Assembly: GCA_019787685.1 (NCBI GenBank)
Contig: JAHNUO010000009.1
Location: forward strand, 310,001-374,000
Source: Chiua virens
Taxonomy: Eukaryota > Basidiomycota > Agaricomycetes > Boletales > Boletaceae
Length of the DNA: 64,000 nucleotides
Reading direction: 5' to 3'
The position numbers were made by a program, and so were the translations under genes. The stretch's first letter is position 1; every line of letters begins with the position of its first letter. The notes under the pieces were generated by a model. The model was not told the origin of the DNA. It saw only the letters and a program-made list of their open reading frames with translations, and searched no databases. This document shows, one piece after another, positions 35,709 to 41,913 of the stretch.

Positions 35709-35714
35709 GAAACG
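35709..35714. repeat. Target-site duplication, left
   Basis: The hexamer gaaacg lies immediately outside the left inverted repeat. It is identical to 41908-41913 immediately outside the right one. Confidence 0.85.
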
Positions 35715-35890
35715 TATGGAAAGCCGGACGGTCGTGCTGATTCCGCATCACGGTTTTCGCCCTCCGACATTCGGCATGAAGATTAGGAAATTGGATTGCA
35801 CGCATTCACGATGACCCCCAGTCACCACTTCAGCCGATGGCCGTACGTACTATACACTGGGTTTCATGTACGATACATGTAGGACAAAGT
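35715..35890. repeat. Left terminal inverted repeat
   Basis: This is the reverse complement of 41732-41907 with about eight mismatches and no gap over 176 bp. It ends 46 bp from the transposase stop codon. Confidence 0.92.
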
Positions 35891-35936
35891 ACCAAAAGTT
35901 AAGTTGTTGATCAAGATGATTACAAGTAACTGTTAT

Positions 35937-37904
35937 CTACATATTGTCGGACAAAAAGGTGTAAGTGGTTTCGTCATCAGAAAACTCGTCCAGGAGTGCT
36001 GCCGCTTCGTCCATCTCAATGTCATCTTGATTGACCGGGTTGGGAGGTAGACCATCCTCTGCCTCCATCTCGTCCAATGCCTGATGGTGCTCAATTTCTA
36101 ATGAATGTTAATGGACAATAGAGTCGAGGAAATGGATGTGAACTTACAAAGACCCATGCCATTTGCCAGACCACCCATATATCCGTCTACATTCTCGAAA
36201 AGTTCTTGAAGCCCCGGGATCAACTCCTCGTTGTTACCCCCATCCTCAGGCTGCTCGCTGTCTGCATTGCCAGTCGAAAGGATATACTGGAGTTCGACAT
36301 GGTGGTCATGCTGTTGCAACGCATTCAGCAGCGATTGATAGACAATCCACACGGAAGAGCGGTTGACAGATGGCGAACCAATCCGACCATAGCAATCCTC
36401 GATGAAGGTGCCAAGAGCGGGGGGAACAAGGTCGAACACGACATGGTCTTCTTTGATGTAAAGCTGGCGAACGTGGTCAAGTGCTGTTTGATCGACCATG
36501 ACCTGATTTCGTATGTTAAGTAACCAACTCGGAGAACCTGAGAGTATTTAGATAGTGTACATACTTTGAAGTCGAGTGCGCCGAAATCTTGTGGCGACTC
36601 GTGGATGAGCTCGGGAACACTGTGCGGGAGTATCTGAGAGGCTTATTAGTACAGATAAGTCATGGACAAATTCAAATATACCTTGTTACGGTCACGTCGT
36701 TTACGAGAGCGATTGATACGTTGCTTGTAGTTATCTAGTTCTTGCTGGAGCCATGGGATGAAAATCCAACGAAAGACCATCCTGACGTCGAGTAAAATGT
36801 GTTAGTAGACGCACCAGCATATCGGAAATACCACTTACAGTTGTAAGGTATTATCTGGGTCAAACCACCCAGCCTGAATGCCTTTTTCGAGCACCTCCTC
36901 AAAGCCCGGAGTGAAGCGGCGCCGGAGTTGTGACCAAGCGATCTCTGGCATGATATTTTTCTTCAAGCGCATCCAACGGTGCTGGACGAAACCTTGCAAT
37001 GCCGGGTCATGCATCTGGCGAAGCATCGTTTGCGCGTTTGCAATACCGAAGTTTTCCGTGCCAGGATCACTCTGCGTCACCATAGGAACATCTAATGAGA
37101 GGTGTCGAGAGGTGTGAGTATACATTCGAAGCGAGCACAAAGGCTTACTTACATCCGAGGGATTCCACCGTTTCGAGATAGTAGGACAGAATAAGCTGCG
37201 GGTTACGGTTACTATGCCATACCTTCATCCATAGAATACGCCCCGAGAATGGCTCGATGCCGGTGTGTAAGGCCAGACCAAAGCGTAACCATTTGTCGTG
37301 CTGGTCGACTGCCCAGATGTCATTGACACCTGCAGCCCAGAAGCGACGACGTTTGAGGCGATTAGCTCGACGAGCTTGGATGAGGTGAGGTTCATAGAGC
37401 TGGAAATATTCCTGAACTACCCGCCTGTCAAATAATTAGTGCGATACTTTCAACTAGATGAGTCTGAGTGCGTTTTACCTCGGAACACTGAGACCATGTT
37501 CATGAAATAAAAGACTGACCATTTCCCGAGCCCCAGCATGTGGGTACATCTTTCGCAGTTCGACCATTTGCGCTGTGATAGAGGCTGTCGTGTGTTGTTG
37601 CTGTCGTGCTCGAGTCAATCCGAGGCTCTTCCGGATTGACTTAAATTTGGTGAGTCTATTTGATTGCGTCTGCCTGACAGTTCAATTCTTGAAGTGAACA
37701 GGGCACTTACCCAATGCCGTACTGGTCAGTGTCAAATACTTTTTGAAGCGCACCGACAATCTGTCTGTCTGTCTGCCGTGCGGCCCAGAGCCGTTGAATG
37801 TGGGGCTCTATCAGTTCTAGGGGTGCTGTATCCATGGTAAGTCCACTAAAAACAACGAGAGCCGCATTTTTACACTTACGGGTAGGTTTCCACTGGTTAG
37901 GCAT
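35937..37904 (-). CDS. Integrase-type (DDE, rve-like) transposase
   Basis: The predicted enzyme cuts and joins the transposon ends. The start at 37904 reads MPNQWKPT, and a 55-nt intron leads to PLELIEPHIQRLWAARQTD. An N-terminal helix-turn-helix region follows (LRKMYPHAGAREMVSLLF, similar in layout to the IS3 HTH_21 type), then RRVVQEYF and the catalytic core. That core has VNDIWAVDQHDKW (first Asp), a beta-strand with GIEPFSGRILWMKVW, SDPGTENFG (second Asp) and, about 41 residues on, KKNIMPEIAWSQLRRRF with the likely Glu. The acidic C-terminal tail ends DDETTYTFLSDNM with the stop at 35937-35939. There are seven to eight short introns and no frame break that I can see. It lies divergent to the alpha-kinase gene in the same element. 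Confidence 0.83.
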
Positions 37905-38694
37905 CGTAAATGACGCGGATGGCCCAAGACACAGTCACTGGGTTCGGTTAGGTGAGAGGGAAGGGGCTCGATAGGTGAGGCAATCCTGGTGGGCAGCAAG
38001 GCTCGCTAATAGAGCACCTCAGAGTCTTTGTTGGCATGGCAAAACACGCGCACCACCACCGTGACCTTCACTTGCTGCCTCATGTCAGATAGCAACCCCC
38101 ACTTACCCCCATCGTCTACCGGCTTCTTACCCAATCGCTTCTCACTTGAATCCACCCCATTCTCAGAATCTCCTTCTCCTGTGACTCTTTGCCCCTTCTT
38201 GGGATTTTGTTATCCAGGTATTGTGCGCTTTGTTTCCTCATGTCCTCGGCTCACCGCACCATTTTTTTTGTTTTTAGAAGCTATCTTTACTTCGTCTACT
38301 ATCTGCCACCTCTCAAGTTCCGCCTCAGTCCTCGTTGTCCTTTCTTTAGCAGGTATGTGTACCAGATTTGTTCTCTTATCTTGGACGAAGTTCGACGAAC
38401 ATTTTCTCACGAGTCACGACAGATTCTCTATCTATTGTGACCCAATTCAACTAACCAACTTGTCGCCGGATGGCAACAGCCACACAGAATTCCGTCAGAT
38501 GACAGTAAGTCCTTTATCAATTCCAGTAAACTCAACTTACAAGGGTCGAGCAGCGCCATTGCTGGGTATAACATGTATCAAATTCCCAGGGACACCGTGC
38601 CGGGCCAAGGTGTTGCGCCAAGGTGAGCTACTAGTATAAAACCTGTGGGCTGCCTCCATGACTCGGACTAACACGTCACATAGCCTTTCCCATC

Positions 38695-41614
38695 ATGTCG
38701 TCCTTTCAGCTTGTCGCACCGCTGACTGAGGTGGCTTCAGACGATCAGGTCTGCAAGCGTACCTTCTGCAAGGAACTCATCCCCCGAGGATCGCCCTACT
38801 ATCCTGTTGTAGGCTATGACGCCAGCATGCCTCCACGCAAAATGTGCCAACATTGCTATGAAGAGTGCCTCAGGTTACCAGGTACTGCTGTGCGCGAAAC
38901 GTGTAAGTAGTATCTGCCAGTGAGGATGATGCTGATCATATTTTGTGGTAGACCCAGCTAGCATGGCGGTCCCTGATCCTCAACAGGTGCGAGTGGCTGT
39001 AAATGCCTCACAATCTAGATGTAAGTAGCACATCTTTTTCGAAGTATTTTGCCTTGGAACTCATTTTATTCACAGCAACGGTCAATCCACCTGCATTGGT
39101 TGCGATTCCACCTAGATATGGAGTAGGTATTTCACGCATGAACTTGAATCCACCTGCCCCACCTGCGCAGCTGCTCCAATCTCGTGGATCACAAGCAATG
39201 TTACCGCCCTCATTACCCACTGCCCGTTTACCCACCCAGCTTGTCCAATCTCGCGGATCACAAGCAATGCTGCCACCCTCGTTACCTGCTGCCCGTTTGT
39301 CCCGTACTGGCCCCAGGGTGGATGTGCCAGCCACTTGGTCCACAACTGGTCCAGTGTCCATCCCCAAGTCTAGTAACTGCGCAGTCATGCCTCACAATTT
39401 CGCTTCTTATAATGAAAGCCATGCATACTATCCTACAGAAACTCAGTGTTGGTCAGGCCTTGCTCGCGGTACCCTTCCTTCTGCTGAGACTATCTCCTTG
39501 AGTATCGTGGCCTTGCGTGAGGGTGGTCAAAGGAGAGGTCGCTTGAATGGGACCCCGTTTGGGGTAAGTACTCACCAATACTACGACTGGCTGGACATGA
39601 CTGGCTGACATTGCTATAGAATATCATTGAAGGAAAGAAAGGTATCGATGCACACATCACTGCCAGCGGGCTCGTGGCAGTGGCACGTGAGATTCTCGTC
39701 CCCAACATTATAGCTTTCTGTCCTGAGTTCCCTTGGTGTGTGGACGAGTTTGTGATTCGCGATGACTCCTGGGTGGATCTCGCAAATCATGCCGAGACCG
39801 CCGAGAATCCTTTGGGCTATTTTTACCAGGACTGTCTCCAATGCAAAGGCAAGGGATTCGTGTTCAAGACCCGGCAGTTTCCTATCTATGTCGTCGTCCC
39901 CCAGAACCAGTGGACAGACTATGAAGAGTTCATTGTGAAGAAAAATGGACCACCGACGGAGTTGGACTTCAAGTCCACTAGCAAGTCTGGTGCTACGTCT
40001 CGCCGTTGTTCTGCACATGACACTACACAGCTCGTGAACACATCTCCTGGAGCATCTCGCCACCGCTCCACACACGACATGACACAGCTTGCATCCCATC
40101 ACCGCCAGCCGAACTCCATGACTGCTCCATTGTCATCTATTCGCTCACCTCCTGCGGTGTCACTGCAACCTCTGTTCTTGAGTTTGAACGATGAGCAGTC
40201 TGATGACGAGGGACCAATATCCAAATCGCTTGTAAAGGTAATGTATTAACACAACTAATTGCCTACTGTGACTGACATCTGATGCTCCAGCCTGCTACTG
40301 TCTCGTCTCCAATCTCAATCAAGCGTGCCTATAGTACGCGCCCCAGCAGTGCCGCCAGTAGTACAACAAAGTCCCTGCCTACAAAGAAGATGTTTGTCAT
40401 CAAGTCTGAGCCCTTGTCCCCCAATCGTGATAACCTTCGCGAAGCATTGCGAGTCAGCGGGACTGCTGATTTGGATACTACGCAAAGTAAGTTTTTCTTT
40501 TCTACTTCAACTCCGCTACTAACTGTTTATAGTCTTGAAGAATTCTGTCTACCAGATCGACTTCTATCCCATCCCCACGGTCTCCATCAAACTTATTCTG
40601 AGGAGTCCTAATCACTGCAAATTTGATTTGGACCCAAAGAAGAACGTGACAATCTTACATCCAGGACAACTTCGGCTCGGTGGTCAGGATGAGTCATACG
40701 TGGGAGCTGGTGCCTTCAAGACAGCATATACTGCAACCTTGATACTCTCGAAACCCACCGCCACTGGTATAGGGTCTAAGCCGCACGAGACCATTATTAT
40801 CAAGCGACCCTACATTCGTCGTCCCAATCAAGACCCATTTAGCACAGGCCCTTTCAAACGTCTTGGCATCAAGGAGGAGTCTGAGAAATTATTCCGTGAG
40901 GCCAATGTTTTGTACTGGGCGAAAGCACTCTTCAAGCTTGCTGAAGATTATATTGCCAAGAGAATTGCGAAGGAAACTGAGCCCCCACCTTTCAAAATCC
41001 CTTCCATATGCTTCGTCGATGCTGCTCTCACCTTTCGATACCCAGCCACACCAGTCAGAGGGCCTCGCACACCATCCATTGACTGCACCTATCTTTGTGA
41101 AGAGGAGATAGAGGGTGCCGACATGGTGTTCCTGAAGTTCATCCACAACGGCAACTGCGTTCCACTTCCAAGGCCTGGGGATACTGGCCATGACGTTGCT
41201 GAATTTCTTGCGTTCACCCAACACATTCAGTACGTGAAAACAAAGGGTTCCACCTACGTTTCAGACTATCAAGGTCAGTAATCTCAATGTGTTGTCTATG
41301 CTATAATCTCATATCTTTGTATTAGGGACAACTTCCCTCCTGACGGACCCTCAAATCCTCACCCATCCGTGCATGTTTTTTTATCTTGTTATTTCTATCT
41401 GACTCAGACTGCGACTGATCTATTTCTTAGTGACATCGGACACGACCTTTTTTGTGAAGGGAACTTGGAGAAGGCGGTGGAACTTTTTGAGGATGAACAC
41501 ATCTGCAATAAGTTTTGCAAGTGGCCGGGCTTCAAGTTGGTACCATTTAGAGGGAATTGGAAGGGCAAGGGTAAGGCATTGGATCCCGTCATCTTGAGCT
41601 CAGACTCCAAGTAA
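38695..41614 (+). CDS. Transposon-borne protein with N-terminal Cys cluster and C-terminal alpha-kinase domain
   Basis: Read as one multi-exon gene from MSSFQLVAPLTEVAS. N-terminal part: a zinc-binding-like set (CKRTFCKELIPRG, then CQHCYEEC). Next comes a Pro/Ser-rich linker with a 23-residue tandem repeat, then a conserved-looking block (ILVPNIIAFCPEFPWCVDEF, CLQCKGKGF, FPIYVVVPQNQW) and an Arg/Ser-rich linker. The C-terminal atypical alpha-kinase domain has VGAGAFKTAYTATL (Gly-rich loop), IIIKRPY (Lys), VSDYQG followed after splicing by TTSLLTDPQILTHP (metal-binding Asp/Gln), DIGHDLFCEGN, and the zinc-site EDEHICNKFCKWPG. It would phosphorylate Ser/Thr. The host or transposon target is unknown. 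Upstream exons from an ATG at 38082 are possible, since the frame joins across an intron into AFPIMSSF. Nearly all splice sites are canonical. Confidence 0.82.
39176..39313 (+). repeat. 69-bp tandem duplication inside the alpha-kinase linker
   Basis: Two in-frame 69-bp units (39176-39244 and 39245-39313) both encode QSRGSQAMLPPSLP and an ARL-type end, with a few silent or conservative changes. This lengthens the linker by 23 residues. Confidence 0.75.
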
Positions 41615-41731
41615 TCATCTACTATGTTTTTGGTACCATGTGATTTTTTGCTGTGCACTTTTGAATGCCATACATCATTGTCAGATTATATTATGGAGAC
41701 AATGGAAGTGCACTACTTGGAATCTTGGATC

Positions 41732-41907
41732 ACTTTGTCCTACGTGTATCGTACATGAAACCCAATGTATAGTACGTACGGCCATTGGCCGAAGTGGTGA
41801 CTGGGGGTCATCGTGAATGCAAGCAATCCGATTTCCTAATCTTCATGCCGAATGTCGGAGGGCGAAAACTGTGATGCGGAATCAGCACGACCGTCCGGCT
41901 TTCCATA
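41732..41907. repeat. Right terminal inverted repeat
   Basis: Inverted copy of 35715-35890. It starts about 117 bp after the alpha-kinase stop codon. Confidence 0.92.
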
Positions 41908-41913
41908 GAAACG
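41908..41913. repeat. Target-site duplication, right
   Basis: The hexamer gaaacg is identical to 35709-35714. Confidence 0.85.

Follow-up and report, generated by a model that had tools for sequence, protein, structure and literature searches.

A TET-less IS3EU transposon of the bolete Chiua virens pairs its transposase with a predicted alpha-kinase

A 6,193-bp DNA transposon in the genome of the bolete Chiua virens carries two divergent genes, a transposase gene on the minus strand and an alpha-kinase gene on the plus strand. Sequence comparison indicates a long-standing partnership between kinase and transposase rather than a chance insertion, because kinase sequence is present in all five two-ended elements of this genome, the kinase gene is under purifying selection, the kinase and transposase trees are correlated, and both proteins occur within single gene models elsewhere. 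We are highly confident that the element is a two-gene IS3EU transposon, since its ends, its target duplication and its transposase all fit this superfamily. Overall, the explanation that we consider probable is an IS3EU-kind transposon in which the kinase serves the element. The pairing of transposase and alpha-kinase is itself already in print, and the element described here is a TET-less bolete IS3EU; what is new are the five kinase-bearing elements, the purifying selection, the correlation of tree distances and the two-protein gene models in other mushrooms.

Results

A complete-looking element with two divergent genes

The window, that is, the whole stretch of 64,000 nucleotides that was analysed, comes from contig C9 (310001-374000) of a 48.3-Mb assembly with 136 contigs, and the element occupies window positions 35715-41907. 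The following features were assigned:

35709..35714, no strand: left target site duplication, GAAACG
35715..35890, no strand: left terminal inverted repeat, 176 bp, beginning TATGGAAAGCCGGACGG
35937..37904, minus strand: transposase gene JVU11DRAFT_6818, 500 aa, integrase core PF24764, 9 exons, from the public protein aligned to the window (exons 1-5: 37904-37880, 37825-37711, 37655-37479, 37424-37153, 37091-36839; exons 6-9: 36781-36682, 36633-36565, 36502-36172, 36097-35937)
37905..38694, no strand: 790-bp intergenic gap between the divergent genes, presumed from the gene models to hold both promoters
38695..41614, plus strand: alpha-kinase gene JVU11DRAFT_6819, 848 aa, PF02816, 8 exons, from a spliced model and the public protein (exons 1-4: 38695-38902, 38952-39020, 39076-39563, 39620-40237; exons 5-8: 40291-40486, 40533-41273, 41326-41368, 41431-41614)
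38716..38874, plus strand: N-terminal four-cysteine module (C20, C25, C51, C54), residues 8-60, pLDDT about 78-92 in blocks of ten
39414..39952, plus strand: conserved middle domain, residues 206-366, one intron inside, pLDDT mostly >90 from residue 231
40538..41560, plus strand: alpha-kinase catalytic domain, residues 529-831, two introns inside
41732..41907, no strand: right terminal inverted repeat, 176 bp
41908..41913, no strand: right target site duplication, GAAACG

The inverted ends (TATGG..CCATA) are identical at 168 of their 176 positions (8 mismatches), and the perfect 6-bp duplication abuts each end without a gap. The inverted repeats of such elements need not be identical at insertion. 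A sequence-only reading of this DNA had reported inverted ends of 176 bp and about 95% identity, a perfect gaaacg duplication, and two genes for an integrase-type transposase and a multi-exon protein with an apparently complete alpha-kinase domain; all three observations were confirmed, the last by the PF24764 match, the 8-exon model and a near-full PF02816 match. When the 64-kb window was searched for 6-bp duplications bordering 20-bp inverted ends that start with TA, the finder returned the element and one sub-match within its inverted repeats, and the same finder returned no match in any of five mononucleotide shuffles of the window. The empty insertion site that the sequence-only reading had proposed to look for was not found in this genome, where a query made of the joined flanks matched nothing beyond the two flanks.

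The transposase matches the rva_4 Integrase core domain (PF24764, model positions 6-174 of 194, E 4.5e-16). Of its presumed catalytic triad D146, D205 and E246, the first residue is kept in 31 of 32 aligned relatives and the other two in all 32. The D-D-E triad of this integrase-type transposase is intact in the window gene. A PDB sequence search with the transposase alignment gave no match. When the last splice site of the relative on contig C11 is applied to the window gene, a stop arises about 50 residues before the end, and the public model escapes that stop by using a different donor site. The window transposase may therefore be shortened at its last splice site, which counts against the explanation that we prefer. 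With this caveat, 'complete-looking' is a fair description of the element, whereas the label 'active' would be too strong.

For the kinase, an independently spliced model was identical, letter for letter, to the public JVU11DRAFT_6819 protein. Its match to Alpha_kinase (PF02816; E 9.7e-15) runs from position 2 to position 185 of the 185-position model, with a score of 55.6 bits against a curated cut-off of 21.3. The gene keeps the conserved residues of the alpha-kinase fold, with K617, E717, D771 and D781 in the catalytic domain and H757, H811, C813 and C817 at the presumed zinc site. On the strength of this fold and of the conserved catalytic and zinc residues, we regard it as a predicted kinase. 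PDB comparisons gave no convincing cover of the middle domain, a result of little weight since the lists were filled by the kinase domain. A near-tandem repeat of 62 bp (85% identical; window 39168-39229 and 39237-39298) lies in a disordered linker of the kinase.

Assignment to IS3EU and the published pairing

IS3EU elements are described, in the part of the text available, as having TA..TA ends and usually 6-bp duplications (PMC10045372). The window element has a 6-bp duplication, terminal inverted repeats with TA..TA ends, and an integrase-like DDD/E transposase with a conserved triad. The earlier supposition that no described transposon carries an alpha-kinase proved wrong, as the pairing is noted in passing in the available portion of Kojima 2025 (PMC12730594). 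No other naming of it was apparent among the open-licence papers listed, leaving aside PMC10853768, in which IS3EU and kinase both occur.

A genome-wide search for TET/JBP (PF12851) gave 23 matches, none of them in the window element or its four sister elements. These matches are scattered over the bolete genome.

Five two-ended elements in the genome, all with kinase sequence

A 24-letter end pattern, searched genome-wide with up to 3 mismatches, occurred 26 times, and the reversed pattern, used as a control, did not occur at all. Five elements in the genome match at both ends and are bordered by a perfect 6-bp duplication, and every one of them contains kinase sequence. Besides the window element, these are:

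C11:936129-942288: duplication GAGATG, 6,160 bp; both gene models open; second complete element
C49:69668-91417: duplication CCGAAG, 21,750 bp; ends 89% alike over 234 bp; both genes present, decayed
C4:253486-255978: duplication CGATTC, 2,493 bp; keeps the kinase domain and a C-terminal transposase piece
C11:702716-716294: duplication GCTTTG, 13,579 bp; remnants of the kinase; no match to the transposase, with 8 kb of the interior left out

In the C49 element the transposase is split across 70.1-78.8 kb and the kinase alignment contains a frameshift and stops. The complete element at C11:936129-942288 shares with the window element the type of ends, the divergent gene pair and the 6-bp duplication, but its inverted ends measure 93 bp and its main kinase exon is 48% identical, which marks it as a different lineage of element. 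Judged by its inverted repeat, the subfamily of the window element has a single full-length copy in this assembly.

The sequence-only reading had asked whether full-length copies always contain both genes, and had named two outcomes that would speak for a chance insertion: copies that lack the kinase throughout, or kinase homologues never flanked by such ends. Three both-ended elements hold both genes, one more holds remnants of both, and the fifth has kinase remnants and no transposase match. The search for kinase-less copies came out in favour of the kinase, in five both-ended elements out of five. The idea that kinase homologues are never flanked by such ends was rejected, as five of the eight related kinase loci lie between them.

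Three further observations concern the ends. The five target duplications all begin and end with G or C, a possible target preference in a small sample. Four IS3EU ends (C14:363348, C14:1132216, C14:1130373 and C2:429127) have the outer flank CTGACAYGAG in common, which points to truncated or nested copies in a repeated context. At C11:253671-253935 lies a 265-bp fold-back of two window-like IS3EU ends without a matching duplication, possibly a short non-autonomous relic.

Kinase loci and kinase-less transposases

At least nine alpha-kinase loci were found in the genome (all such counts are lower bounds, and two pieces on C23 were taken as one split gene), eight of which are related to the window kinase. 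Five of these eight lie inside end-to-end elements; at C14:943-945 kb the end pattern was found 2 kb off and on one side only, and for the loci on C23 and C12 no ends were found in the adjoining DNA that was examined. Six of the eight IS3EU-type loci are broken or fragmentary. The ninth locus, on C3, has motifs that suggest the remains of another kind of alpha-kinase; as a candidate window-type kinase it was rejected, since none of 12 kinase-bearing queries matched at C3:2165459. In this region (C3:2165459-2165608 and 2168583-2168801), one of eight transposase queries matched weakly, 3 kb from the relic and on the same strand (33% over 82 aa, E 2e-5). Nearly all of the alpha-kinase loci found here are thus of this transposon type. 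The suggestion that the element could explain the alpha-kinase expansions of mushrooms is supported for this genome, with eight of at least nine loci of this type, but the C3 relic is apparently of another.

Transposase relatives without a kinase also occur, namely two fragments on C1 and a trio on C14, C53 and C63 whose members share 98-99% identity across 3.3-3.9 kb. Around the C14, C53, C63 and C1 copies no pair of ends was found in the DNA examined, and the kinase searches gave no match on C53, C63 or C1. These kinase-less relatives count against a kinase that serves the element. The trio (C14:71061-72695, C53:54852-56651, C63:78984-80540) is perhaps carried by another element or by a segmental duplication. 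Its C14 copy sits amid fragments resembling coatomer beta' and a methionine-pathway gene, and beside it, at C14:74186-77445, lies an element whose 103-bp inverted repeats are 99% identical and whose ORFs resemble a Harbinger-type transposase and a partner protein.

Selection, introns and trees

Between the window and C49 copies, the kinase protein gave a dN/dS of 0.19 over 796 codons and the transposase one of 0.05 over 409 codons; between the window and C11 copies, synonymous sites were saturated. Within the kinase protein, the kinase and middle domains have lower pN/pS values (0.26 and 0.31, respectively) than the linkers (0.60-0.67). The kinase thus changes faster than the transposase, which is a further point against the explanation that we prefer. 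Five of the seven window kinase introns and seven of the eight window transposase introns occur at the same place and in the same phase in the C11 element.

For the tree comparison we used 17 Boletales pairs, comprising the C49 pair and 16 kinase/transposase pairs from the same species and same-sized contigs, drawn from 84 kinases and from the 120 of 524 transposases among the matches listed; some of the 17 lie on contigs of 0.9-4 Mb and possibly do not represent one element. Kinase and transposase tree distances were correlated over these 17 pairs (r 0.74, p 1e-4; p 0.0009 when shuffled within genus/family groups), also for the kinase domain alone (r 0.74; p 0.002 within groups) and for the 10 best-supported pairs (r 0.87, p 1e-4; 0.012 within groups). 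The exact topologies, by contrast, differed. In AU tests on the 17 pairs each alignment rejected the other's tree (p 0.027 and 0.012), and on the 10 best pairs the kinase data rejected the transposase tree (0.0155) but the transposase data did not reject the kinase tree (0.061); here the two trees have 4 of 7 splits in common. Lineages may therefore have exchanged genes, or kinases and transposases on long contigs may have been wrongly paired. The deep splits are common to both trees: the Chiua window and C49 copies group with Boletus against Chiua C11, and Boletaceae separate from the rest. The two trees thus correlate in their distances but fall short of full congruence in branching order.

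Sixteen of the 84 kinases among the matches listed share species and contig size with a transposase, against a mean of 30 after label shuffling, which is no excess. We judged this null to be ill-posed and did not use the statistic, as it drew only from contigs in the two lists and from the 120 of 524 transposases among the matches listed, and most contigs appear in neither list. The pairing evidence relied on consists of three Chiua pairs in DNA, four more species by locus tags, and three further pairs on contigs <80 kb. Taken together, these comparisons support inheritance of the kinase with the transposase through several element lineages in Boletales, under purifying selection.

The pair in other species

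Outside Chiua, where the species are known from protein records alone and locus-tag adjacency was read by eye from protein listings, kinase and transposase have near-consecutive tags in Boletus reticuloceps (8961/8963), Melanogaster broomeanus (67056/67057), Suillus fuscotomentosus (1191262/1191263) and Suillus luteus (15632/15633). In addition, 4 of 209 proteins (from Arthromyces matolae, Mycena maculata, Favolaschia claudopus and Mycena filopes) combine a transposase stretch with a kinase stretch in a single gene model; these records are gene models and not proof of fusion proteins. We take Arthromyces, Mycena and Favolaschia to be Agaricales. A protein search with an alignment of four Agaricales-type kinases returned 7 proteins. 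Among viral contigs, 13 stretches fitted a pattern, and none of the 13 encodes a relative.

Discussion

We favour a role of the kinase in the element's own cycle. In the proposed mechanism, the transposase would bind the inverted repeats, excise the element and join it to staggered cuts in the target. The kinase would be expressed from a promoter region in common with the transposase and would work for the element and not for the host. Recruitment to the transposase complex or chromatin might depend on the four-cysteine and middle modules of the kinase, which could there phosphorylate the transposase itself or else a host factor of silencing or repair, so that transposition is permitted or regulated. 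That the kinase has been selected as part of the element is the step we hold with good confidence. Of its possible points of action, the transposition complex and host silencing can each be put forward only tentatively, with a slight preference for the former.

TET/JBP proteins have been proposed to remove methylation for other fungal transposons. An anti-silencing factor, by which the kinase would phosphorylate and disable a host chromatin, DNA-methylation or RNA-silencing protein, overlaps with the preferred explanation and, taken alone, strikes us as unlikely, if far from negligible. It would suit a kinase protein that has an N-terminal four-cysteine module and a second conserved domain beyond the kinase, and it would draw on the rust IS3EU elements, where the available part of the report places a TET/JBP gene between transposase and kinase (PMC12730594). 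Faster change of the kinase than of the transposase is expected for a factor facing a changing host, but equally fits any less constrained protein, and no TET/JBP match falls inside the five elements of this genome. If the kinase were instead cargo, a host signalling gene captured and spread by IS3EU to the benefit of the fungus, one could point to the rusts, in which alpha-kinases are said to be highly expanded (PMC4469406, in the portion at hand), and to the fact that purifying selection alone does not tell whom the kinase serves. We think this improbable. Eight of the nine alpha-kinase loci found are IS3EU-type and six of these are broken or fragmentary, as is usual for transposon genes; the correlation between the trees holds even within groups; and the available text on rusts reports the same opposed orientation of the two genes (PMC12730594).

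Repeated capture, in which the kinase gene would have passed again and again between transposon lineages as reported for TET/JBP genes, accords with the non-identical topologies of the two trees. We nevertheless rate it as improbable too, slightly more so than cargo, given the deep splits and intron positions common to both genes and the within-group permutations for 17 and for 10 pairs (p 0.0009 and 0.012). A transposon that merely captured or landed around a kinase gene at this one locus could explain why the window subfamily has a single full-length copy, but this we regard as scarcely credible and effectively ruled out by the kinase sequence in four further end-to-end elements of this genome, by the locus-tag neighbours in four other species and by the four records with both proteins in one gene model.

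In this genome, the data support IS3EU as the driver of the kinase expansion. More speculatively, the second core gene of IS3EU may be a dedicated kinase, paired with the transposase since before the split of rusts and mushrooms and acting through phosphorylation as a switch of transposition or of host silencing. In that case, many of the fungal alpha-kinase expansions catalogued as signalling or candidate effector genes would belong to transposons. In the portions of the papers that were available, alpha-kinases figure in a table of domain comparisons of wheat rusts (PMC5295586), and the rust genes named as being under diversifying selection include one alpha-kinase (PMC4150398). For annotation the warning is that fungal alpha-kinase 'host families' may in part be transposon genes, which belong in repeat libraries. 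That a DNA transposon of a eukaryote should carry a protein kinase of its own also raises a concrete question, namely which substrate is phosphorylated.

Comparison with known systems

The canonical alpha-kinases TRPM7/ChaK, myosin heavy chain kinase A, eEF2K and ALPK1 have the fold and the conserved residues in common with the window kinase, at about 16-19% identity. They are host proteins and not transposon genes, and their accessory domains differ from those of the window kinase. The Arthromyces, Mycena and Favolaschia models place the same two protein types side by side, with kinase stretches that are 26-36% identical to the window kinase, but they imply a single strand for both genes whereas the bolete layout is divergent.

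The closest comparison is with the TET-bearing IS3EU families of seven rust species and the one family of Tuber indicum, for which the available portion of Kojima 2025 gives 6-bp duplications and TAYGG..CCRTA ends and places, in all families, a TET gene between oppositely oriented transposase and alpha-kinase genes (PMC12730594); the Boletales appear in that portion with Kyakuja as their only TET-bearing transposon. On this account, the window element differs from those families in its bolete host and in having no TET/JBP gene between transposase and kinase, and it shares with them the 6-bp duplications, terminal inverted repeats of >30 bp that end in TAYGG..CCRTA, the integrase-like transposase and an alpha-kinase in the opposite orientation.
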